A stretch of DNA of 64,000 nucleotides from positions 21,531,805-21,595,804 of the forward strand of contig OW121856.1 in the NCBI GenBank assembly GCA_933228895.1. Reading direction: 5' to 3'. Positions 2,657 through 58,625 of this stretch are shown here, in pieces (the first letter of the stretch is position 1; every line of letters begins with the position of its first letter). The position numbers and the translations under genes were made by a program. Under the pieces are notes generated by a model, which was not told the origin of the DNA, made no database searches, and saw nothing but the letters and a program-made list of their open reading frames with translations. The stretch is from Platycnemis pennipes (taxonomy: Eukaryota; Arthropoda; Insecta; Odonata; Platycnemididae).

Positions 2657-3592
2657 GGATATGAACAGTAAATAATAAATACCTATTTATAAATAAATAT
2701 AGTGCAATAAGGGAAATATGAACCGGATATCTGAAGAGAATGTGTACTTACCAAAAATGTTACAATATCTCTAAAAATTCTATATCTTCGACTGAACACA
2801 AGGCAAACCGACAAGCGCACCCACCAGAAAGCTGAGATGGAATGAAGTTTGGTTTGAGTCCACCCGAAACATGGTAGAAGAATATAACGGACCCAAGAAC
2901 GGGTGCAACTTGCAGTCCCTTCCTTTATTGCACTCGCGTGGGCGGCGCCCCGCAGCCGAGAGAAGGTTCTTGGTTTTCCCTAATCTCCCCCTGGCCCGGG
3001 GGTCTATGGCCTTCGAAGGCCATGTTCCCCTCCTCAAACCCAGACCTTTTCACACCATTTGGATACACAATAGCATTACTGCCCCTATAGGAAGGCGTTT
3101 TCTTGGAAATGAAATGAGGTCGCAGTTAGCCGTCAACACTAGAGCCACCGCCAATGTTTATGAGGTTTTGACCGTTTGATACCAAAATCAAGAAGAAAAA
3201 TACTATATTTTCATTGCCTGTGCACGTACAAGGCATTAAGTAAAACTAACTATGGAAATATTCAAGGAAAATAGCAGATTAAAGATCATCAGAAGTGACT
3301 ATAACAAAGTTGTCTTATAAGAAATATTAACACCGCGAGACATCATTCATATACCAAATTTATCTAAAAAAGACATTCTTAAAAATATAAAAACTAAGTA
3401 ATTGTATCAATAAAACATTTTTATATAATAATAAAAAAAATTTCCCCGCTAAATTGAAATTCATTGAAGTTAGAGCCGATCGAAGTTAGTGTGCCCATAC
3501 TGGCACGCTCGGCCCCGAGTGGAGCTTTTTTACCGTGCCCGTACGGGCACGCCAGTCCTTTAAAGGTTAAGTTAGTGTAATTTACGGGCAAG
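2657..3592. other. Intron 1, right part: no recognisable gene
   Basis: It contains a GC-richer patch around 2930-3020 with short overlapping frames on both strands, none resembling a known protein. The rest is AT-rich intron. Confidence 0.4.
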
Positions 3593-3813
3593 GGCCTAGC
3601 CACGTTGATACACCGGTTCCAGGCAGATCACCGAAGTTAAACAACGTTAGACCCGGACGGAGGTTGGATGAGTGACCCCTCCATACCCCTACCGTGGTGC
3701 TCTTGTCCCCTGTCTGCAAGTGGCGGGCAGGTTAAATGTGGGTTGGTACATGATATAAAGAGGTCTAAGTGCCAGGGGGACTCCAGAAGGCCTCCGCCTA
3801 CCCCTCCAATTTA
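3593..3813 (+). mobile_element. 5S-rRNA-derived SINE, copy 1
   Basis: About 220 bp. The first 80 bases track 5S ribosomal RNA: a GCC...CCACG-TGATACACCGGTT start, then GATCACCGAAGTTAA, an ACGTTAGACCCGG block and GGTTGGATGAGTGACC. These correspond to the A box, intermediate element and C box of the internal RNA polymerase III promoter of 5S genes. The remaining 140 bases (CCGTGGTGCTC...CTGTCTGCAAGTGG...CCCTCCAATTT) are unrelated to 5S and recur in the copy at 62794-63005. A shared 5S head plus a shared non-5S body is the structure of a SINE3-type retroposon, not of a 5S gene or simple 5S pseudogene. It ends 57 bp before the acceptor of MAM exon B. Confidence 0.82.
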
Positions 3814-4029: not shown

Positions 4030-4355
4030 TATAATAATAAATTTAGTAGTAGTAATTGAGGGCAGGTGAACCACAGCTTAAGTCCATTGCGCCTTTTAAG
4101 AGAGGAATAGATAGAGATGGAAATGTTAGGTAACGATTGAAGGGAGGAGGGAAACCCTTCGTCAGCATTAGCCGACTCATAAATGAATGACTCCCAGGTG
4201 TCCAAGTTCTAAGGTCCCCACTGATTGATGGACTACTGCACTGAGGCCATCCACACTTCACTCAATGGGACCAATGAAAAATCTCTTCCCCGGGTTTCAA
4301 ACAAGGGACCTCGGGGTGGGAAGCCAGCACTCTAACCATTACCACCCTAACCCAA
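4030..4355 (-). mobile_element. tRNA-derived SINE (minus orientation)
   Basis: Read on the minus strand, it starts with a tRNA-like head: an A-box-like TGGTTAGAGTGCTGG, then a degenerate B box around TTGTTTGAAACCCGGGG. It continues through about 250 bp of body (GAAGAGATTTTTCATTGG...) and ends in a simple ACT/ATT-rich tail beside the exon B donor. The GAAGAGATTTT-CATT body motif after a B box recurs at 10890-11195, so this is a repeat family. The exact ends are uncertain. Confidence 0.6.
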
Positions 4356-5159
4356 TCCCCGCAATGCACTAATTGTACTAAAAGTGACGGGTCATGGAAT
4401 ATAGGTGTATCATGTGTAATCATTCATAAATATTTGAGTATCAGAACGAACATAGGTGAAACTGACTAATACAGGAGTACTTGATAGAGTTCATGGATAT
4501 CTCGATGAGAACCCGTATGGATACAGAGGCAACTTAAGCCCCTCAGTGAATAATCGAATATCTTATTGAATACGCATGAATACGAAAACACAAATGAGTA
4601 CTTAGTCGACTTCCCGAGTATCTCTATAAACATTTGAACATCTAACTGAATACGCCAGCTTCCAAATAACGGCCAGGCTACGGACAACTCTCATTGCTTT
4701 GTTTATTGGGAGTTCTGAAGGAATTGGGTGAACTTCGTGCTTTAATTACAGTGGTACTTGGGGTCCTAAGTAAAATATACTCGGTAGCTACACAGAAAAA
4801 AATTAATGAAGTAAGTATAAACATATAGCCTGTACAAAAGTCTGTTCCAGTCTGTACAAAAAATACACGCTGAAACTTTTTGGCGATAATGCCACTTTCG
4901 TCGGCCGGAAGGAATTAAGGCTCTCGAGTGAGTAACGCGTTGGCATGGGAAAGGATCCGACAGGAGTAGAGCTGAATTTCGGGATAGCAGAGAATTAGAG
5001 GTGATTCAAAACGCAAATATCTGGGGGGCTCAGGGTGATGAAAGTAAGCCTTAAGAGCCTGTGATCACGTTAGTTACCAGCGTCATCAACGTGCACGTGT
5101 TATCATCAAGGGAGGTGACCTATAGATAAGGTCATTAGCTCCACTGAGAATACGTGGGT

Positions 5160-11244: not shown

Positions 11245-11640
11245 ATCTGAAGCTTGATTATTTACGACATTGAGGCATGGACGATAATAGCGATAGAGAA
11301 CTCAAGGCTGGAAGCATTCGAAATGTGGTGGTACAGAAGAATGAGAAACATGAAATGGATCGACCGAGTGACTAACGTAGAATCCCGAAGAGTGGGTGAA
11401 AATACGAGTAGAAATCTGCGAAGAAGACGGGAAAAGGTAATTGGTCTTATCTTGAGACATGATAACCACATGAAGACAATCGACGAGGGAAAAGTGAATG
11501 GGAAGAATGGAAAAGGAAGGCTTCCTGTGGAATATATAGAACAAGTGATGATGGATTTAAAAGAGAAAATATGAAGAGGTTAGCTAATAAGAGAATCGAG
11601 TAGAGACCTGCGTCAAACCAAAGTTGGTAGACTGATGATG
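11245..11640 (+). pseudogene. RTE-type LINE ORF C-terminus, fragment 1
   Basis: The translation has EAWTIIAIENSRLEAFEMWW, YRRMRNMKWIDRVTN, a frameshift or loss, then LILRHDNHMKTIDEGKVNGK and YIEQVMMDLKEK. This is the post-RT segment shared with the better copy at 48912-49988 (EAWTM...RVEAFKIWCYQRMMKIKWIDRV). The nucleotide tail continues to a GATGATGATGAAG end near 11640. It is a 5'-truncated, decayed LINE in intron 4 of the MAM gene. Confidence 0.85.
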
Positions 11641-12329
11641 ATGAAGTAGTTTAGCGTAGCGGAAGAGTGGTCCATGATGTATACATGGTTTATCAGTTGA
11701 AAATGAGGAGGCTGATGCTGATACGAAGAAACCTATGATCATTTCTATGATATCATCGACGGTACCACAAGTTACAATGGTACGGTAATTTGAAGATAAG
11801 AAGTAATCGCTCTGTACCACATACTTTCTAGTTGGCTTGCATGATACTCCGTAGGTTAAGGACTACCCTAGTCAACAGAAAACAACATACTAAAACTGCG
11901 CGAAATGTGATGAAGAGCAGGAAAAATAACTATGGATAGGTCGTGAGGAACTAAGTGCCAATCGAGGTCATTGCCACGTCGGTGACAATGACCTCGATGT
12001 CAATACACCCCTCAAAACTACTACTACTGCGAAAGGTCAACTTGATGTGAATTGTTTTAGCATTAGGAGCGTGGAATGTTTTAGCTACATTATGGGCTAC
12101 CTACTATGTGCATTTTTGATTATGATTCTTAGTGCATGTAGGTAAATGACCATGATGTAGAACATTATTGGTGGTGATTCACCTCTGCCACACACCTTAG
12201 TGGTGGCTCGCAAGGTTACCTGTAGATGTGCGGTACTTTGTGTCGAACATAGATGCATGTTAAGAAACGTAAGCAAGGAGAATCGGTGTAATGCCTGGAT
12301 GAACGTGATTAGCCACGGATTCCGCATTA
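11641..12329. other. Intron 4: nothing recognised
   Basis: A short inverted motif lies at about 11967-11999 (gaggtcattgcc...ggtgacaatgacctc, imperfect hairpin). No other structure is identified. Confidence 0.4.
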
Positions 12330-13454: not shown

Positions 13455-13675
13455 CGGACAACTTAATCGGCCACATCATGAGACTTGATGGCCGGATGAA
13501 GACAATCGTTGAAGGACAAGTTGACGGGAATAAAGGCAAAGAAAGGACGAGTGATGAAGGATTTGAAAGACAAGAAATACGTAAATATGAAGAGATTGGC
13601 CGAAAGAAGAATCCAGTGGAGGGCTGCGTCAAATCAATTTCAGGATTGCGTACTAATGATGATGATCAATATGAT
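13455..13675 (+). pseudogene. RTE-type LINE ORF C-terminus, fragment 2
   Basis: The translation reads LIGHIMRLDGRMKTIVEGQV followed by DGNKGK, then in a second frame KDKKYVNMKRLAERRIQWRA ending ASNQFQD. It is the same family as 11245-11640 and 48912-49988 (LIGHILGHDGLMKTIIEGKV; NYVNMKRLADRRIEWEAAS). It has one frameshift and ends with a GATGATGATCA tail. Confidence 0.85.
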
Positions 13676-45431: not shown

Positions 45432-45584
45432 TTAATCATGCATAGGTTTTTTAACACTCATGAGGCTATCGGAAAGTTTTGCTTGGCTGCTACGAATGTC
45501 CTTTAAAATTTGTAGCATCTCCTTCTGCATTTCATTACTTTGTTGGCTGTTGTGTGCCATGATACATAAACTATCTGCTATGGA
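45432..45584 (-). CDS. Putative coiled-coil protein gene, terminal exon d
   Basis: A predicted last exon of an unrecognised minus-strand gene. Acceptor CACCTTCAG ends at 45585, the phase is 0, and the stop is TAA at 45434-45432. It reads SIADSLCIMAHNSQQSNEMQ and then ILKDIRSSQAKLSDSL, with heptad-like spacing. It follows exon c (58556-58453) if the piggyBac composite between them is ignored; the phases match. The function is unknown. It could be host-encoded or the accessory gene of another transposon. Confidence 0.45.
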   Translation of the reverse strand, partial: SIADSLCIMAHNSQQSNEMQKEMLQILKDIRSSQAKLSDSLMSVKKPMHD

Positions 45585-46040
45585 CTGAAGGTGAAGTTAT
45601 TGGTTATAAGATATTTAATATATATCTTAATCCTTAAGTAGTCACGTGAGCTTAGGTTACGTAACTACTCGCGTCAGGTCATATTGACACAGATTTGAAA
45701 AACAATGTCTTTACATTTAAAGTTAATGGTCATATGATTAGAAATATATCTGAATTTTATAAGCATGATACGGTAACTACATAGACACCATAAATTGTAT
45801 TTTTCCAAAATTGCAGGAGTGGAAAACCTGATTTTTCAAATAATTTGCAATAATTATCTGTGTTCATCATATTTTATTTCACAATTATTCTTTTCATGTG
45901 ATAGGCATCTTCAGGAACATTAAAAGAATTGATTATAGAGAAGAAAACAGGTGTAGAATAACCAATTTGTGTTTACGAAAATAGTTTACAAATTTTTCTC
46001 ACATTGAGTACATAATTACTTGCAATGATTTTTACAAATA

Positions 46041-48334
46041 CAGTAAAACCTCTCTAAGGCGGCCACTGCCGGTTCCAGAAAAAAGTGGCCGTTTGGAGGG
46101 GTGACCGCTAAATAGGGGCTTTCAGGATAAATTACATAAAATACTTACATATGTTCATTTCTAAAATTAATGCATTAAAGTTTATTTTTAATAAAATTTT
46201 ATTTCATATTCAGCTAACAAATAGGGTTTATAATTACTTTTTGAAAAAACCTGTCAGAGTACTTTGTTTCAATTGGCTACATTTTCTTTTAATTAATACA
46301 TTTTCTAAACAATTTTGGAGATTTTCATAGGACTCCATTGAATTTTCATTGAAATCCTTGTCAATTTTTTGGAAGAATGATTTTAATTTTAATAGTGAAT
46401 CTAATCCTTCCTTTACGCTCATCTCAGTGATATTTTCATTTTCCACTTCTTCCTCTTCACTATCGCTTATGTCTGCATCTAATAAAGAAAGAAACAGCTT
46501 ATTATGAATGATCTCTTGGTTTGATGAAATTCGTAAGACTTCGAAAGAAAAATGAAACAACCCTTACCTTTGCCACAAATGCGAGACTCCCAATTTCCAT
46601 CTAAGTCATCGTAGCACTCTACATTCGCCTCTTCTGTGGTATCGTATGATATTCGCGCAGTCGACGCCAACATTTGGAGCTCCTGGTGCAGCGCATTGTT
46701 GCCATCAGAGCTGCAGGGAATTTCCTCTTCACAGTTTTCACCTGCTATTATTCCACAAGAATCAAAGCACTTCCTGATGGTTTCCTTCTCGACTTCTTTC
46801 CATGCCGATTTTGACCATGACACAGCCTCTCCCACATTGATTTTTTTGGTGAGATCACTAACACATGAAGCGTCGTCCATCATTGCCAGTAGGCTGCGTA
46901 GAACCTTTCGCCGGTATCTCAGTTTAAAAGATTGAATAATCCCCTGATCTAGGGGTTGAAGGCGAGCTGTTGTGTTTGGCGGTAAAAACTGAAGTTTTAC
47001 ATTCGAAAGATGTATTTTTGGATGACAAGTGGCGTTATCTAAAAATAAAATAACCTTTCTTCCTTTTTGGATCATCTTTTTATTAAAGGCACGTAACCAT
47101 TATTCATAAATTGCAGAAGTCATCCACGATTTACTATTTGCACACCACTTCACGCCAAGAAGATCCATGTTAACGTTTTTAAAGCACCGTGGCCTAAGTG
47201 CTCTTCCAATCACTAATAGGGGCTCCTTTTCTCCAACTGAATTACAACAAAACATAATTGTTATTCTTTCTTTGCTTAGTTTTCCACTTTTGCACTCGAC
47301 ATGTTTCAAAAGAAAGTGTCTTGTTCGGAATGGCTCTGTAAAAAAGACCAGTTTCGTCCATATTAAAAATGTCTCTGGCCTCATAACCCTCCACAATAGA
47401 CGACACTCTCAATTTCCATTCCTTAACAGTCTCTGGAGAAACATCTCCTCCTTCACCACTAATTGATCTAAAAACAATATTGCTCCTGGTCCGGAAACGT
47501 TCCAACCAACCATTACTAGCTGCAAATCCCTCAATCTGAAGTTGATTTGCAATGTCCAAAGCTTTCTGTTGCAGTATTGGACCACTAACCGGCAAATATT
47601 TTGCTCTGGCACACTTAAACCATTCATATAACCTATCATTAACTTCACTAAACTTCTGATCTCTCCTCTTCCTTTTTATCCCTCGATTCTTGTTGTCCTC
47701 TTGTAGAATAGTGTCCCTCTTTTTAATGATAACGTTTATCTGTGTCCTTCCGCACTTAAATTTTTCGGCAATTTTCCTTGCTGACATCCCATTATCACTG
47801 TCAAAAATAACACTTTCTCTCTTCTAAAGACAACACCACTTTGCTTTTGCTGCTCATTTCGCAATCCTCTCTTCCGTAAGCTCCAACCGCCCAACACACC
47901 GTGCCAATCGCGAATACGTTTTATATTTTGCCTCCTTTGCTTGAGGTGTCGGACCGGAAGCAGAAATAGGAAGCAGCATACAATGTAAGTCGCTTATAAG
48001 TAAGCTCGTAAGTATAATCGAGGAACTGACGGGTGGTCCCCGATATTCCCTTCGTCAGAGGGAACGAAACAATGTAAGTGTATCAAGTGTACATTTGAGC
48101 ATGGGCAATAAAGCTCCTCTAAGGCCAATCAGAGAGAGATTTGAATTTGAGATTTCATGGAAGTGGCCGTATCTTGTTGTTACGCTCTGGCCGCTGGTCG
48201 GGAAGAGAGGTGACCGCTGAATAGGGGGTCATTTTTCAAGGGGAAGATAGGGTAAACCATTCCGTTCTGGGGAAAAATGGCCGTTTACAGGGGTGACCGC
48301 TGAATAGAGGTGGCCGTTTGGAGAGGTTTTACTG
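46041..48334 (-). mobile_element. Tigger/pogo element, full length, inserted in piggyBac
   Basis: Termini CAGTAAAACCTCTC and, on the right, GAGAGGTTTTACTG, flanked by TA (46039-46040, 48335-48336). Further repeats of GGCCGTTTGGAG-GGGTGACCGCTGAATAGGGG lie inside both ends. The length of 2,294 bp is that of a complete autonomous Tigger. The TA lies in the codon series of the piggyBac Cys-rich domain; excision would restore CKQ-C-ICKNH in frame. Confidence 0.95.
46234..47857 (-). pseudogene. Tigger (pogo-type, DDE) transposase
   Basis: Start ATG at 47857 (MSSKSKVVLSLEERK), then a frameshift near 47800. The DNA-binding part SARKIAEKFKCGRTQI and the CENP-B-like second domain (FKCARAKYLPVSGPILQQKA; FAASNGWLERFRTRSN) follow. 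Catalytic motifs: NMDETGLFYR (D1), LFLDNATCHP (D2), LQPLDQGIIQSF (D3), so the triad is present. Defects: a frameshift near 47290, TAA at 47100-47102 just before WLRAFNKKM. A small intron 46567-46479 (donor GTAAGG, acceptor TTTATTAG) joins CGKG to the acidic C-terminus DADISDSEEEE; the stop is at 46234. Inactive as it stands, but only lightly decayed. Confidence 0.93.
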
Positions 48335-48911
48335 TACACTGTTTGCAGACACTGCACGTTTGTGAATATTTATTATCTTTAGAGCTAGGGCAAATGACAC
48401 CTCTTTCACTTTTTCAATGCAGGCTCATCACTTTTTTCTAGCATTTCTGGTTCCATGATATGGTTCCCTGGTTCCCTCTCTGACAGAAAAAGCCTTATGT
48501 TTAGAGGAAAATTGCAGGAAAAATGCTGACTATAAACCCTTCTAATAACATTAAGATTTCTCAAAAATTTTCTTCTTTTGATTTTTTCTCCTGTATTGGC
48601 TTTGTAAATACCATAAGCATTTGGTGCACTCACATTGATAAAGTGAAAGAAAACTTCTAATGGCATCTTCTAGTTCTACATCCTACATTGTAGTTGCTGC
48701 AGAGTTGGTCAGATGTGTCGACTCCGACTTTTGTGTAGTTGCAGACGCTTATGATTTCCGGTTTCATTTTGGACCCTGTCTCGATATAAATCTTATCATC
48801 GTGGTGCATGTTAGAGATACCTTCTACTGAATTTGACTTAGCATGAACATATGACCCCATGGCAATACCTTCAGTAAACCCAAAAACTGATGAATTGGCT
48901 TCTCGTTTTTT

Positions 48912-49988
48912 CATCATCACCAAGGGCCAGCAATCCTAGGATTGACGCAGCCTCCCACTCGATTCTTCTATCAGCCAGCCTCTTCATATTAACGTAGTTC
49001 CTCTCTTTCACGTCCTTTACTACTTGTTCTATGTAACTCATACGAGGTCTGCCTTTTCCATTCTTCCCATTCACTTTTCCCTCAATGATTGTTTTCATCA
49101 GGCCATCGTGTCCTAAGATGTGGCCGATTAAGTGGTCCCGTCTTCTTTTTATAGTTTTCATCAGAATTCTCTTTTCTCCCACTCTTCTTAGGACTTCTTC
49201 ATTTGTCACTCGGTCAATCCATTTTATCTTCATCATTCTTTGATAACACCATATTTTGAATGCTTCCACCCTTTTCTTCTCTGCTTCTGTCATCGTCCAT
49301 GCCTCACTGCCATAAAGAAACATGCTCCAGATATATGTTTTGATGAATTGCTTCCTTACTTCCAAGCTTGTATTTCCAGCTGTTAGTAGATTCTTCTTCT
49401 GATGGAATGCCCTCTTTGCCTGGGCTATTCTACTCTCTATTTCTTTCTTGCTTCGTCCATTGTTGGTTACTCTGCTTCCTAGGTAACAGAACTCTTTCAC
49501 CTCTTCCAGTTTCTGTTTTCCTAGTATAACGTTGGTTTTGGCCTCCTCTCTCTTGCTGCACACCAATATCTTAGTTTTCTTCTTATTGATCTTCAGCTGA
49601 TGTATGGCCATTGTTCTTTTCATGGTTGTTAGCATCTTATTCAGATCCTTCTGTCTCTAGTTCTCTATGAGAGCTATGTCATCAGCGAATTGTATCATAA
49701 TGATTGTTTTGCCGTGGATGTTCACTCCAGAATACTTCTCCTTGACTTCATTGATGGCTCTCTTAATGTAAACATGAAAAATTATAGGAGACAGTGCACA
49801 GCCTTGTCTCACTCCTTTCCTTATTCTTGCTTCTTTGCAGCTGGGTCCAGATTTTATCACCGCTACTTGGTTTTTATACAAACTGTGGATAATTCTTCGG
49901 TCATTGTATGACTCTCAAATTCCTTTCAATATTCCAAGCATTAAATTCCAATCCACATTGTCAAAAGCCTTCTCTTAATCCACAAATG
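48912..49988 (-). mobile_element. RTE-type LINE inserted in piggyBac (5'-truncated)
   Basis: Flanked by a perfect 10-bp target duplication CTCGTTTTTT (48902-48911 and 49989-49998). On the minus strand it starts inside RT motif A (EKAFDNVDWNLM). It continues VRQGCALSPIIFHVYIKRAI, MIQFADDIALIEN (FADD active site), a stop, then INKKKTKILVCSKR, YLGSRVTNNGRSKKEIESRI, LYGSEAWTMTEAEKKRVEAF and HILGHDGLMKTIIEGKVNGK. The end is GGTGATGATG just before the duplication. It has only two in-frame stops. It is the best of three related copies in the window (also 11245 and 13455). Clade assignment to RTE is by motif memory. Confidence 0.93.
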
Positions 49989-50145
49989 CTCGTTTTTTAT
50001 TGGGCAAAAATTCATTTCAGCATTTCAGCAGGTATTTCAGTTTTATTTTTTCAAATTGTTCCCACTAATGTCAGTTTGCTTTCTAACAATGATTTCACCA
50101 AAGGTATGCTGGTATACCAGTTATCAGTGGTTACTCCAGTGGAAC

Positions 50146-50295
50146 ATTGACGTAGTATCTACGTCGATTTTACATCGATACTACGTTGATGCTACGTCGA
50201 CGGTTACATCGACATCGACGTAATAATGGTCCTCGAAGCTACGTCGATTCAACGTCCATTATCAACGTCGATGCGTCGACGTCATATCTATGATA
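50146..50295. repeat. Left subterminal repeat array of the CACTA-like element
   Basis: About eight degenerate copies of TACGTCGAT or its reverse complement (CTACGTCGATTTT, CATCGATACTACGTTGATGC, CATCGACATCGACG, CTACGTCGATTCAACG). Subterminal arrays of this kind bind the transposase in CACTA elements. Confidence 0.85.
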
Positions 50296-51074
50296 CTTCG
50301 ATGTGCTTTCGAACCGAAAAATGCAGCTTACAAAATTTCTAAAATGTATTTTTAAATAGTATTTATTCAATTGTATTTTTTTAAATTGTTTGTTTAAAAT
50401 TTTTGAAGTCCATTTCTCTGCCTAAAATGCGCAGAATTTGTTTTCGATAATTTCAGGATTAGGTACATGGCTGCGGTAGAAGTAAAATGAGAACACTGCT
50501 TTTTGCCATTTTCATGGAACCTTTATTTGATTTTAACATTACGACATGGACATTAAATAAACAAATTAGGAAGTTTGAAATATATCAGTAACGGAATAGT
50601 TTTAGCAAAATAAACAGATTGGAATGAGCAAAAAAATAAAAAAAAACTATTCATTCAACTTGTTTTTGCCCTTCGCGGTGCGTCTTTTAGCCATCAACCT
50701 AATGCATCATCCACCTCATCTTGTTTTTAATCCTCCGGCCTTTTATTTCGTTCTGAAGAATTTCGAAGGACCACTATTGGAGAAAAATTGAAAAAATAAT
50801 GAAAGGATTAAAAATAATCACGTTTGATATAATTTTTTATGGAGTTCAACGTACCACAAACCAATTTATATATTATCGTTTTCTTGAAGCTTTATTTTAT
50901 TATTGCTTCCAGGTCTATATATTCCTTGCATGTTGTAGTTTTGTGCCACATAGTCCGTCATTAGAGCTTTATAATGGAAAATATTTTTTCTCTAGTTCCT
51001 CCAATTCCAAAAGTTGAGAGATATTGAACCTGCAACAAAATTCTTCGATTATACACGAAGGCTCCCGAGAGTGA

Positions 51075-51290
51075 TATATGGCAAAAGAAAGTATATCAGA
51101 TAGGACTGAAGGGATCACTTTGTGGAATTTAGTTAAACTATACATGGTATAAAATAAAAACTTTTAGTCTAAGACAAAATATACATTAGTCAAACTGGAA
51201 GAAAGTTTTCTATTCGCATCAAGGAACATAAACCGTATTTTATAAATCATTACGACAAATCTGGTACGCCAGATTACCTGACTGCCGCTA
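51075..51290 (+). pseudogene. Penelope-like element 3: GIY-YIG fragment inside the CACTA element
   Basis: The + strand translation VYQIGLKGSLCG, then IYISQTGRKFSIRIKEHKPY matches the Penelope GIY-YIG nuclease (GVYxIxC...YIGQTGRSFxTRxKEH), with YIG now YIS. It lies between exons of the DUF4806 gene on the opposite strand and may have replaced the missing exon(s). It is followed at once by the palindrome at 51293. Confidence 0.75.
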
Positions 51291-51292
51291 GG

Positions 51293-51338
51293 CCACGCCT
51301 AGTGGCATAGGTACCTATAACTATGCCACTAGGCGTGG
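51293..51338. repeat. Perfect 18-bp-arm palindrome
   Basis: CCACGCCTAGTGGCATAG (51293-51310), loop GTACCTATAA, then CTATGCCACTAGGCGTGG (51321-51338). A strong cruciform or hairpin; meaning unknown. Confidence 0.95.
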
Positions 51339-53265
51339 TGCTGTCATTTTTAGGGATATCGGCAAAGGTATGGTTTTTTATCTCTAATACTACCATTTGT
51401 GATCGTCCTTTTCTCGTTCCTCAATACGCATGTGAATTGAAATATAGCATATCCAAGTTTACACAACAAATAAGGTATGTTCTGCAACACATGGATTTTA
51501 ATGACAATTGTCCTCCATAAATAACGGAAATGATGACTTCAGTTACACTGAAGATGTCCGACTTAAAGGAAAAAGGATGTCTTTAACTATCACTCTCCTT
51601 ATTGAAGAGCTACGTGTCAAAGAATCTCATAGAACTTATTCGTTAAAAGATGACCCTGTGATTTAGGCTTTAGAATTTTATTCAAGGGGCTTAACTCAAT
51701 AATTATACTCACGGCAGAAGCAAATTTTTCCTCCTGGTGCAATTCCTCCATCTATTCATTTATCTGATCCTCGTTTTGCAATGGGAGGTTTGGAAAGTCA
51801 TAAATTGGTTTTATAGGTGTGTTCTGTCTATTATTTGAAGTTAATATTGCCAGTGTTTTATTCATTTTTTTATCCATTTCCTCAAACTTTATTTTTAATT
51901 TTAAAATTTCAGTCATAACTGGTTTGGAGCAAAGATCACCTTAAATGTAATAACATAATAAAACAATTTCACTTAAATTTCCGTATCAGTAACCTATAAA
52001 ATATTTTATTATATAAGAATTCTTTCATTAAAAGACATTTGAAGAACAGTTCCTCCAGTTTATATGTATCAATGAAGATCTAGTCTAGTGCATATACTAT
52101 TTTCTATGAATTAACTTGTAATGACTTCGTATAATACGCAAGATTATATACATTTCAAAATGATGATGATGCTTCTTCAATGTGGTGGGATTTCTACATT
52201 TCAGGTGAATAGGATTTATTTAAAATTAGAAGACGGCTACATTTAATTATCAAGGCAGACTCACTCGGAGGCGTTCTCTCCATATTGTTTCGATCGCTCG
52301 GGCTAGGTACATTTTCCTCTAAGGTAATGGTGGATGCTCGATTTTCCAGCATTTCTATAATGAGGATTTATTAGCATTGATTACATTCTGGAATGATAAA
52401 TAAACAAGTTGATTATATAAGGTTTGCTTCAAAGTATGATCTCTCTAACGTCTTTGATTAATTCTGAGTGAAGGCAGCTGTTCTTCTTCAACCTCAGACT
52501 CCTCGGATTCATATCTTGCCGGTTTCATAATTTTCTTTTTTTTGTGGCTTCCACTTGGTTCTTCGGAGGTTTCCAAATCTGAGGTGAATTGTGCCCGGGT
52601 TGACTTCTTCCTAGCCTCTTGCAGAGTATCTACGAAAGAAAATATTTTGAATTATATATTGTATTCGTTTTCAGAGAAAACATCGCAAATGGATCTGACC
52701 ACGCTATATATATATCATGATATCTTTTATTAAATGGACCTTATATCTTGATATCCCGTTTGAATTTGTATATGTATACGGTTCATTAAGTCACCTTTTC
52801 ATTAGAATTAATTAATACAAGGTAACTCACCGCACCATGCCCTGATTGTGACAGGGAATTCCATCCCATTTGGGGTCTCATCCGGGCATTTACGACTTTT
52901 GATAAATGATTCCACCTTTCCTTTCTCAGTTGGCCACTTACACATTCCTCTATAGATGGAAGTCATTCCGATTTCAATTTTTTTGGTATTTTTCACCCAG
53001 TTGGAAGGAACTGCCTCCACTTCAGCTGCATTGTCAAGATTAAACTCGACGACATAGTACTGAGGAGAGGGTTTATTTGAGCTATGAATGTTAAAAAATA
53101 TGTAGGATGATTAACTTTATTATTGATTCAAGTACACCTCTATGGTAATTCCATCTCGTTACAATTTGATCATTAGGAAAACATGTTTAAATAGCATATG
53201 ATAAAACCCATACCTCAATTTGTATCAAATGCTTTTAAAATACTCACCTGGCAGTCATTAGGCAT

Positions 53266-53561
53266 CTTCCGATGTAATTTATTCAATTTTCAAGTGTTGA
53301 AATACGTAAATTGAAACACGTAATCACGTAAGACGTTTTGTGAATCCCGCTTATCAGCCTGTTGTTCATTGCATTGCCAATGGTTACTCCTACTGGCACC
53401 AGTGGCGGTAAATACAATTTGAGTCTTCAATACGGCCTTTCCCGAGTCTAAGATATTTTCAATTGAATTCGTCTTGATTGAACAACAAGACCTTGATTTC
53501 TAATAGTTTATCGTCTGTATCTCCTCGCATCAAGGGGTTTTGTATATTTGTGTTCGTCACA
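53266..53561. promoter_or_regulatory. Probable shared bidirectional promoter of the CACTA-like element
   Basis: 296 bp between the start codon of the minus DUF4806-type gene (53265) and that of the plus transposase (53562). Both first exons are tiny (six codons each) and point away from each other. No TATA box is assigned; the promoter is inferred from the gene layout. Confidence 0.5.
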
Positions 53562-55862
53562 ATGAATCGGATTTATGAGGTAAGTGCAAAACATGCTGGC
53601 TTCCATACAGCATAAGTTTCCAACTAACATGTCTAAATACTTTAAAGATTACTAACGATCTGATTATCGATAAAATGGTTGTGATAAGTTCAAATAAAAT
53701 TATAACTAAGCTGCAGTTCTGACATTTCATTTTCATTATATTAACAGAATAGAAAATTACGAAGAAAGGCTTCAAAAGAGATTGCACGAGTGTTGATGGA
53801 ACAAGATCAACTTGTTACGCTAGAAACTTGCAACAAATATGGAGCCAATAATGTCTGCGAAGCGCCTCCCTACCACGAAAATGAAATTCGTTTGGCTGAC
53901 AAAAAAACAGACGATAATTTCACGGAAAAACTCCAAACCGTAAGCATAGATAAAGATGATAGCAATCTCACGACTTCATTCGAATCAGACCACATATTTG
54001 GCGCAAATGAAATGGAATCAAAAAATGGAATGAATAATGATTTAAGTTGTGCTTCAAGAGCGGATGAGAAGACGTCGCAGGCATCTCTCCAGTTTCAGTT
54101 GTCGAAGTGGGCAGTTACGCATAATATTCCACAATCTGCAACGGATGAACTTCTATTAATCTTAAGGAATTGTGGTCATTCAAATTTGCCAAGAAGAGCA
54201 AAAACCCTTCTAAAAACCCCTAGGTCCAATAAGGATTTAGTTAAATCATTATGTGGAGGGTTATATTGGTATAATGGAATATTGAAAAATATTCAGCCTG
54301 TGTTGGAAAGTATTACATTACAACAAGATACGGTGGCGATGGATGTGTTTGTGGATGGTATGTCCCCTTTCAAAAGTGTTAAAAAATCTATTTGGCCAAT
54401 TTTAGGTTGCCTGGTCGGAGGTAATGAGCCCTTTGTCATAGCCTTATGGTGCGGAGAATCTAAAATGCCTACGTGCGTTCACAGTTTTTTTGATGATTTT
54501 GTAGCTGAAGCAAAAATTCTAATTACTAGAGGTTTCTTTGTTAATGAAATACATAGAAAGTTGGTTATCAGAAGATATATTGCCGATGCACCAGCTAGGG
54601 CATGGATTAAACAGGTGAAACAGCATGGGAGCAAGATATGATGCGAAAGGTGTGTAGTAACCAGAGAATGGCACAGAAGAATGACCTATATTAGTTCGGA
54701 AATACCAAATGCACTGCGTACCTCAGATTCGTTCAACAACCAAAATCAGACCGAATATCATATTGGGACGTCACCACTCTTGAGTTTGAAAGCAGACATG
54801 ATCAAAGATATACCCTTAGATCCTATGCATTTGGTATACTTATGGGTTATGAAGAGACTATTGAGCATGTGGTTAGTACCAAAAAAGAGTAGACATTACC
54901 AAAAACCAGATATTATACGTAAATTATCCGTACACATGGCAACTCTTAAAGACTGCTTTCCTTGTGACTTCGCCAGAAAACCGAGATCGTTGTATGAGTG
55001 GAGGACATTTAAAGCCACTGAATACCAAAGTATTCTTCTCTATGATGGTATCGTTGTTTTTAAAATCTTGGGAAAAGAACTTTACCTCAATTTTCTAAAT
55101 CTTCACATTGCAATACGAATTTTAAGTGATCCATTGCTACGTGATCATATTCACGATGCCAATAAACTCCTTTCCAGTTTCATTAAAGATTGTAGTCGTT
55201 CGAACATGTATGGAAGGGAATTCATCGTGTACAATGTGCATCATTTAATTCATTTAGCAAATGAATGCATGGTACATGGTACTTTAGATGGTTTCAGTGC
55301 GTTTAAATTCGAAAGTTACCTCGGAGGTATCAAGAGGCATCTGAGATCACCCAGTAAGACTTTGCAACAAGTTATGAGATGACTTTCAGAAAAATCACAG
55401 TCATTTGCAAGAAACTTCAATCCAACCTTCTCTGGTACGCTGCAACAACACCTAATTAATAGTCCGTGAAATATCTTTGGTGAAGCTGAGTACAAGAAGA
55501 TAATTTGGAATGGTTTCGTGCTCCGTACCACTTGGCCAGACAATTGCATCCTATCGAAATTCGGTCAGATAGGAATTATAGAGAGGATAATTAATACTAA
55601 CACTAAAAAAATTACATTTGTAGGGAGATATTTTCAAAATCTACAGGACTATTTTAATTATCCATGTGCCTCGTCTGCGCTTGACTGTTTTAGGGTAAAA
55701 ATATTAGGTCAACCTGTAAATTGGTCATTAAAGCACATTAAAAGGAAATGTTTTCTTTTACCTCTGGATTTGAGAAGTGGATCTGAGACAGATTTATTCG
55801 ACAAATCATTATTTACTGGTTCTTTTGTATGTATACCAATGATAAAAAATGAATGCCTTTGA
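53562..55862 (+). pseudogene. CACTA/EnSpm-like transposase, near-intact
   Basis: Exon 1 53562-53579 (MNRIYE) has donor GTAAGT; exon 2 starts 53748 after TTAACAG, in frame (NRKLRRKASKEIARVL). The single frame then runs to TGA at 55862, about 710 codons, broken only by TGA at 54639-54641, 55380-55382 and 55467-55469. Motifs: MDVFVDGMSPFKSVKKSIWP (first Asp), WPILGCLVGGNEPFVIALW, YIADAPARAWIKQVKQHG (second Asp), CERCVVTREWHRRMTY (zinc-binding), DPMHLVYLWVMKRLL (third acidic block), KPRSLYEWRTFKATEYQSIL, and VHHLIHLANE...FSAFKFESYLGGIKRHLR, similar to the DUF4218 end of plant CACTA transposases. The superfamily assignment rests on these shared blocks. Confidence 0.8.
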
Positions 55863-57204
55863 TACAGGTGGTCTCCACCATAGACGTAAGGAATTTGTAG
55901 TACCTACGTAAAAATGTACTTAAATTCATATGTTATATTTCTACATCAAGTTGGATGTACTTCGATGCAAAACATGACAAATGTACAATTAATAAATGTC
56001 CTGCTGAATAATGGAAATTCATCCAGGAAATTTCATTCAAAATACCAATAATATGCTTTGTAAAATTTGTAATTAAATAATTATTTATAAAAACAAAAAT
56101 TACACTAAGGTTTATTTTCTCTGTTAAATTACATTTACATTATAATTTCTTTTAAAATGTGGCAGGTACAGCGTGAGAAATTCATCATAGAACAAGTATT
56201 ATCAATCAAATTGCATAATTAAGCCAAATTATTTCAGACCATACCAGCAAAATTACAACCCAAGAACGCAAAGGCCAGGCGACTGCTTGAAGCTTTCAAC
56301 TCTTCATCATAGACACAGTTGCACCACTGTGAAAGATCAAGTAACGTTTAATCTTTGATTAAAATATTGAATGAAAGCAGTATGTTCAAATTAATACTGA
56401 CCGATGCAAGGAAGGATTTTTAATAAGCTTTTCAATTGAAAACGTTAACCCCTCGTTGAGATGATTTAGCTTAAATATTGCTGACCCTTGGTGTTTTTAT
56501 AAGGAGAATATATGCTCAAAAAAGTTTGAAGCCACGTAATGTTGTCGGTAACTAGTAGAGCGTTACTCGCCGCAGCCTGGGCCGAGCGAGCGAAGCCGCA
56601 CTGCTCGGAAGCCCATGCGCATGGGCTGTGCTGAGTTACCGTAGTCGCTGCGTAATCAAAATCGGCTCCTACAATTGACGCTGCGTATGTCCAGCTCGGG
56701 TTTTCATACCATCAAAAATACTAATATTTTCTTAATTTTATAATTTATGCAAAGGGGACAGGGTCGTAATATCAACTCCTAGTATAAGTAAAATAGTAAG
56801 AATACCTATAGAAATGTTTTGTATTGCTTACACTATAAAAATTATTAATTACGTTAAGATCCCAAATAGGCAAAGGATGCTTCTGGTTCGCATATTATCA
56901 TTGCATCAAAAATTGTTGGTTACCCTAATACGCACTAGTTTCCGTACCACAATTTTTTAAAGATAAGCAATATGTTGATTTCCGGGAGATTGCAATTTTT
57001 TTATTAAAAACTAATCAAACAGGGTGGGAACACAAGATATTGCCCCAAAAGAGTATGGTGCAAGTTTCTGCCGAAGAGAAAATATGTATTTCATTCAATT
57101 TCCCAGCTATTCCTTACAAAATGTCAAATTACCATTTAAAATTGACAATTAAATGTCAAATTGAGACTTTAAAAAACACCTTTTTTTAGTAAATGGTAGA
57201 ATCG

Positions 57205-57400
57205 CGTAGATCGGTCCACGTCGATTCCACTCAGATATAACGTTTCAAAGTACAACGTCTATGCGTCAAAGTTACATCTACGTCGATTCAACGAAAACAA
57301 TCGACGTCGACCTGTCAACATTACATCGACGTAGATATTACGTCGATCTCCGTCAATCAACCAGAAATATGTCGATTCTACATAGATTCGACGTAGATGT
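57205..57400. repeat. Right subterminal repeat array of the CACTA-like element
   Basis: Degenerate ACGTCGAT motifs in both directions (CACGTCGATTCC, CTACGTCGATTCAACG, CATCGACGTAGAT, TTACGTCGATCTC, TTCGACGTAGATG), mirroring the left array. Confidence 0.85.
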
Positions 57401-58452
57401 TCCACTGGGGTATATTCCTACAAGACCCCTTCATAGGAGCAAATAGCCATTCGAAGATGTCCTGTGGTTTGTTCGACAGCTTGTATGGGCCTTCATGTTG
57501 AGTGCCAGGGTATACTTCAAATTTGATGAGGCAAAAGATTCTTGCATCAACAAGAGCGAATACCTTTATGTCGTATTTTTTGGGTTTTTAGGAAAGTACT
57601 GACAAAATGAATAACTGCTTCTGAATGGAATGAGTTTCTCATCAATGGTAGTGTACTCAGCCGGAGTATATGCCTGAGCATATTTCTCTCCAAGGAAATT
57701 CAGCATTTCTCAAGCATCAGCCAGTTTGTCTAAAGCCTTTCTTTCGGTCCCACTGTTCATGTCATCAAAACGTATGCATCGAAGCAAGAACAAAAATCTT
57801 TCATAAGAAATTGTTATTGAACTGTTAGTGGCCCATCTCTCCTCCATAGTTCTTCAAAGTGTAAGTGAGCAGCTCAATGTATTCCACCCATCAATAAAAG
57901 CCCAAAAAAAGCTTTCATTTCTACTTTATCAACACTTGGTATGTCACGGTCCCTACTAAAACTTTCCCGTATTTGTGAAATGTATAAATTGGTGCAATGA
58001 ACTAACATTCTACCAGATGGTCATCAAAAGAAAAGACGATAATAAATTGCAAATGGAACGCAAAGTATTGAGGCAACCTAAAAGTATCCACAACTATTAC
58101 ATTGTATCACAAATGCACGCAGTCATTGAGCAGTAATTTTCATGATGCAAACTCTCGCGTCGGGTCAGACGGTGATATATTTCATGATGCCAACACTTGC
58201 GTCAGGTTAAAATACTAAATTGTAATAGATATGGCATATTTACCAACAAAAAAATAGTATAGAAAGACAGAGGAAAGTAAGTAAAGAGATTACATGGGAC
58301 ACTCATTGCTACAGTAATTAACTGAATGCAAGTTTTATTCACTGAAAGTATCACTCGGGTCAAGTAAACCCAACATGTCTACTGAAGGGTTAAATAGAAA
58401 TGTAGTGACTTTGGATGCAATTATACTGATAGATAGATATACTGATACATGC

Positions 58453-58556
58453 CTTGAATAATGTCAGTTTTTCAGCCTCATATGCATCCATCCTTTGCTG
58501 GATGCTCTCCATTTCATGCCTTAAGTGTACAGTTATCATAGTGGGTTGTGATGTAG
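58453..58556 (-). CDS. Putative coiled-coil protein gene, exon c
   Basis: Acceptor TTTCCACAG ends at 58557; phase 1 start, phase 0 end. Translation TSQPTMITVHLRHEMESIQQ then MDAYEAEKLTLFK, a likely coiled coil. The donor that fits exon d is GC (AAG|GCATGT), a GC-AG intron; a GT donor three bases on (GCAT|GTATCA) would put the next exon out of frame. The piggyBac composite lies in the intron that follows. Confidence 0.45.
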
Positions 58557-58625
58557 CTGTGGAAAAATAAAACTTTTGTAATTATCAGGCAATTAGCTAT
58601 GTAATTCCATTATAGTTTCCTACAC

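Follow-up and report, generated by a model that had tools for sequence, protein, structure and literature searches.

How one piggyBac transposon came to contain three other mobile elements, and what kind of transposon the largest of these is, are the questions raised by positions 45,627 to 58,393 of a 64,000-nucleotide stretch of Platycnemis pennipes contig OW121856.1 (the window). The locus consisted of a single piggyBac interrupted by three independent insertions with boundaries exact to the base, namely a pogo/Tigger element, a truncated long interspersed nuclear element (LINE) and a 7,277-bp CACTA-like element. The fuller account, in which the piggyBac was already a deletion derivative when three later insertions reached it and the CACTA-like element carried two genes, is moderately favoured over the alternatives weighed below.

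All boundaries given in the earlier note were found again on recomputation. The piggyBac was bounded by TTAA at 45627-45630 and 58390-58393 with terminal inverted repeats TCCTTAAGTAGTCAC and CCCTTCAGTAGACAT, and the sequence between the TTAAs summed to 2,097 bp when one duplication was retained per insert. Its four pieces lay on the minus strand: the first (45627..46040) included the TTAA, one end and the 3' end of the transposase up to the Tigger TA, the second and third spanned 48337..48911 and 49999..50133, and the fourth (57413..58393) ran to the other TTAA. Stretches 17-52, 76-105, 109-153 and 248-330 of the PF13843 profile were matched in order by four of its pieces, the last of these stretches by the piece at 48337..48911, and two of the four matches exceeded the curated cut-off. 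The Tigger element (46041..48334) was flanked by TA at 46039-46040 and 48335-48336, the LINE (48912..49988) by the 10-bp direct repeat CTCGTTTTTT at 48902-48911 and 49989..49998, and the CACTA-like element (50134..57410) by TA at 50132-50133 and 57411-57412. Removal of the inserts had been claimed to rejoin the piggyBac coding sequence; the joined flanks TCSVCKQCICKNHCK and SCRNITTDNWYTS at the Tigger and CACTA-like joints restored it in the two joins read across, while at the LINE joint KKREANSSVFGF begins in frame.

The check named beforehand was a comparison with other piggyBac copies in the genome from which the window derives (1.79 Gb, 88 contigs). The left piggyBac piece gave 33 genome matches including the window, and some of the 32 further matches were fragments of one copy. 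Eighteen other copies were retrieved and compared with short joined flanks in which one duplication was kept, a joint being scored as spanned when at least 20 bp aligned on each side and as gapless when no gap fell within 14 bp. The Tigger joint was spanned in 15 of the 18 copies (13 gapless), the LINE joint in 11 (all gapless) and the CACTA-like joint in 12 (11 gapless). The proposed joins were thus carried by uninterrupted relatives; the remaining copies were interrupted, diverged or truncated, or the stretch retrieved was too short. When longer stretches were retrieved for L048 and L049, the LINE and CACTA-like joints were crossed in both. Comparison piece by piece gave an overlap of neighbouring pieces of exactly 2 bp at the Tigger joint in 13 copies, of 10 bp at the LINE joint in nine copies and 9 bp in three more, and of exactly 2 bp at the CACTA-like joint in nine, and overlaps of 2, 10 and 2 bp match what single insertions with such duplications require. 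An assembly or recombination artefact is very improbable as the source of the arrangement: no point in its support was found, two joins restore coding and the third starts in frame, and all three agree with the relatives and have the right duplication length.

The size of 2,097 bp was likewise recovered, but it is that of an internal-deletion copy. Six relatives with both ends aligned (L027, L029-L033) measured 2.70-2.95 kb, and the window copy was without approximately 590 bp corresponding to reference positions 1746 to 2340, with the deletion join near 58031. The same join, within 8 bp, was present in L028, L035 and L048, of which L035 (3.44 kb) also carried an insertion. As the deletion is common to three other copies, the window copy had probably already lost this segment when the inserts arrived. 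Read by eye in the copies L031 and L049, the segment looks like the acidic N-terminal portion of the transposase, and its loss makes mobilisation in trans probable. In TTAA, PF13843 and inverted ends the copy resembles other piggyBac elements, from which it differs as an internal-deletion copy. TTAA and short inverted ends were present at both ends of most relatives whose two ends were seen; L032 was without the right TTAA and the left TTAA of L033 was short by one base. A second piggyBac transposase open reading frame of 329 amino acids was located elsewhere in the window at 1600-2589 on the minus strand (PF13843, 5.7e-70). The piggyBac at the locus itself seems intronic, with TSQPTMITVHLRHEMESIQQRMDAYEAEKLTLFK and SIADSLCIMAHNSQQSNEMQKEMLQILKDIRSSQAKLSDSLMS flanking it on the minus strand at approximately 45450-45590 and 58450-58570 when read by eye.

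The claim that four transposition mechanisms had been dated relative to one another was not supported. The inserts adjoin side by side, so nesting makes each younger than the piggyBac and orders none among themselves. Three of the four elements are DDE/D cut-and-paste transposons, which leaves two chemistries rather than four. Other copies of all three inserts were present elsewhere in the genome, so that the second refuting outcome named in the earlier note did not occur either. Best identity to other copies was 88% for a long piggyBac match (mostly 77-87%), 92% for the LINE, 96% for the CACTA-like element and, for the Tigger, 94% over 545 bp with 96-97% over 2.07 kb in three copies, values that would fit an old piggyBac with younger inserts and leave the inserts unordered. 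Several other piggyBac copies held hAT-like, LINE or unidentified insertions. Insertions into piggyBac copies are usual in this genome, and the nest is an ordinary event in a repeat-rich genome of 1.79 Gb. L035 and L036 carry insertions at nearly one position; a common event was considered for them and rejected, since the two inserts share no similarity.

The Tigger element, on the minus strand, had CAGTAAAACCTCTC inverted ends, the CAGT termini and TA duplication of pogo/Tigger, and matches to DDE_1 (PF03184, 1.6e-23) and HTH_Tnp_Tc5 (PF03221, 3.1e-16), with no notable difference from that group; all 40 copies scored of 180 candidates, the window included, matched. The TA it entered (46039..46040) was occupied by pogo-type elements in two further piggyBac copies. 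In L048 a 1.88-kb element with ends CAGTGCAACC and CAGTGGAACC was flanked by TA on both sides, and L037 contained a third element, seen by its left end CAGTAGAAGCCCG, with no right end found within the 9 kb retrieved. This raises the alternative that the TA is a preferred pogo-type target and the Tigger insertion non-random, an explanation compatible with either view of the CACTA-like element. Three different pogo-type ends share this one TA where the 2.7-kb reference relative has 206, and under uniform choice three of three at one TA has a chance of approximately 2.4e-5, or 0.005 for the two fully seen elements alone. A hAT-like element in L049 also lies only a few bases away, its 8-bp duplication ending three bases before the TA. 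Weighed against this, the reuse was spotted post hoc from few events, L037 contributes a single end, the query used to collect copies terminates at this TA, and the site was empty in 15 of the 18 retrieved copies, L039 and L040 also crossing it uninterrupted. We regard the preference as evenly balanced.

The LINE was a 5'-truncated non-long-terminal-repeat element on the minus strand with a TGATGATG 3' end, cut within the reverse transcriptase as judged from motifs read by eye, and truncation together with the target duplication is as found for LINEs. It is presumably RTE-like, and its 254-amino-acid open reading frame gave no Pfam match. All 40 copies scored of 3,969 candidates, the window included, matched, and three other copies extend further 5'. 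A fixed-length element, suggested by 1,087 bp in the window against approximately 1,092 bp in L039, was rejected since other copies are longer and the truncation point of L039 lies a few bases further out. The window holds two further fragments of this kind of LINE, at approximately 72% identity, at 11245-11645 and 13456-13632.

The 7,277-bp element, on the plus strand, was CACTA-like as the earlier note had it only in the broad sense, and it matches the animal TRC type. Its ends read CYCCAGTGG in place of the classical CACTA or CACTR, and more fully C(T/C)CCAGTGGAACAT, the 12-mer CCAGTGGAACAT being exact at both ends, although this pair alone is not beyond chance since two of 100 shuffles had an equal number of near matches. 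The duplication was TA in the window and L060 and TA/CA in L061 instead of the classical 3 bp, and the element starts CTCC or CCCC rather than with CA..TG termini. According to PMC1636069, animal TRC elements have CCC ends and 2-bp direct repeats. Both features were found here, with CCCC at the right and CTCC at the left end in the window and CCCC at both ends in L061. ACGTCGA or its reverse occurred 13 times in the 550 bp of both ends, never in the 6,727-bp middle and three times in the rest of the window; these repeats marked the left end at 50134..50290 and the right end at 57200..57410. The right end had 28 further genome matches (29 with the window).

Among copies of this element, L060 and L061 were short derivatives with common internal joins (760/2796 or 2808; 3418/6439) forming a non-autonomous subfamily. 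Another derivative subfamily, L059 and L062, starts at element position 1281 and is without 4342-4900. A zinc-knuckle open reading frame, which we assume to be LINE-like, precedes the derivative in L059. A near-perfect 21-bp hairpin CCACGCCTAGTGGCATAGGTA was located inside the window element at 51293-51338.

The transposase gene (53562..55862, plus strand) was read as a short first exon, MNRIYE, predicted by eye, followed by 53745-55862 with three in-frame TGA codons. It had 594 homologues, and the D, D, CxxC, HxxxH and E residues, with CxxC and HxxxH between the second D and the E, were retained in the window transposase and in all 27 relatives. PF02992 was matched by three of 28 relatives and DUF4218 by 23 of 28 (E<=0.1). 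A model made on a relative had a RAG1-like fold, and predicted models placed a BAH-like domain at the C-terminus (55470..55859, plus strand) with TM-scores below 0.5. The transposase is thus predicted to be a RAG1-fold enzyme with a BAH-like tail. Pfam reported no BAH sequence profile, a sequence search of solved structures with the middle part of the transposase returned nothing at E<=1, and scans of viral and prokaryote contigs for the transposase gave 82 and 32 pattern matches respectively, none of which was confirmed.

Divergent from the transposase, a putative second gene (50869..53265, minus strand) ending in DUF4806 was assembled by eye from exons at approximately 53248-53265, 52835-53065, 52448-52630, 52263-52356, 51715-51940 and 50869-51028, with plausible splice sites. 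The joined exons, with X at one stop and one frame break, matched PF16064 (DUF4806) at 6e-7 and 30.1 bits against a cut-off of 25. A protein database search with the second protein examined 43 and 308 candidates without a match, and a PF16064 search of the own genome gave no match, its controls being silent too.

These predictions bear on the alternative that the locus holds nothing beyond four commonplace, decayed transposons, in which case the second gene would be captured or degenerate sequence of no relation to the element and the BAH-like tail just a widespread beta-barrel arrangement. Nested insertions are common in this piggyBac family, and several results weigh against a two-gene element: the last second-gene exon alone scored below the PF16064 cut-off and the DUF4806 match is weak exon by exon; the DUF4806-bearing last exon was not found at L059 or L062, which slightly lowers the probability of two genes; and the best Foldseek match of the tail reached an E-value of only 3.7e-3. 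However, three second-gene exon pieces recur at 93-98% identity in L059 and L062, laid out likewise beside the transposase, the 50 tail matches listed of 178 with E<=10 were all BAH proteins, and the ACGTCGA repeats are restricted to the ends. We consider the four-decayed-transposons alternative rather doubtful.

The two-gene architecture is possibly new, the second-gene assignment resting on exons joined by eye. The TRC elements SmTRC1 and those of Aedes and Tribolium are alike in Transposase_21/tnp2 kinship, CCC ends, 2-bp duplication and animal host. The element here has, in addition, ACGTCGA repeats at its ends, a BAH-like tail on its transposase and a divergently oriented gene matching DUF4806, none of which appeared in the passages of PMC1636069 examined. 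The CMCT group, as described in PMC12730594, has CxxC and HxxxH motifs and mostly CA..TG ends; fungal, EnSpm-like ESTA elements share a CMCT-type transposase and TA duplication with the element here but carry a TET/JBP gene. In the DUF4806 literature examined, with subscription journals largely outside the search and sources accessible in part, DUF4806 was not tied to a CACTA-like element. A DUF4806-BEN link is cited from Pan 2023 in PMC11075544, and a Hydra table (PMC7642931) has DUF4218 enriched in Hydra viridissima and DUF4806 in both Hydra species.

Plant En/Spm (CACTA) has the same catalytic pattern, CxxC and HxxxH included, and likewise has subterminal repeats; a second protein that binds DNA is proposed as a further parallel. 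The element here is without the CACTA end and has a 2-bp instead of a 3-bp duplication. In En/Spm the TnpA and TnpD proteins cooperate. Part of this cooperation is described in PMC1636069.

In the proposed history, a piggyBac derivative without the apparent N-terminal part of the transposase was probably mobilised in trans and apparently inserted into an intron of a minus-strand gene, where it would have offered three unrelated elements a neutral place to insert. The pogo/Tigger and the TRC-type CACTA-like element would have entered TA by DDE/D cut-and-paste; the LINE would have arrived through target-primed reverse transcription and been truncated at its 5' end. The CACTA-like element most likely operated as a two-gene transposon, in which the RAG1-fold transposase with its BAH-like histone-reading tail would cut the ends and the divergent DUF4806 (BEN-like) protein would bind the ACGTCGA repeats at both ends, a division of labour most likely like that of TnpD and TnpA, on which it is modelled by analogy. 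Outside these elements, a 5S rRNA match at 3587-3708 was barely above threshold (39.9 against 38 bits) and perhaps represents a 5S-derived short interspersed element.

The nest illustrates relative dating neatly, and a TA repeatedly used by different pogo families would, if true, be a testable target preference. Tentatively, and with somewhat less confidence than in the history of this locus, animal TRC transposons may in general be two-gene elements that pair a RAG1-fold, chromatin-reading BAH transposase with a divergent DUF4806/BEN protein binding subterminal ACGTCGA. If so, DUF4806, a domain of 'unknown function', would gain a transposon origin and the animal genes that carry it would be linked to transposition. 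The accessory DNA-binding protein would have arisen independently of plant TnpA, and the combination of a chromatin-reading transposase with a DUF4806 partner would suggest a way for these transposons to select chromatin or to open it.
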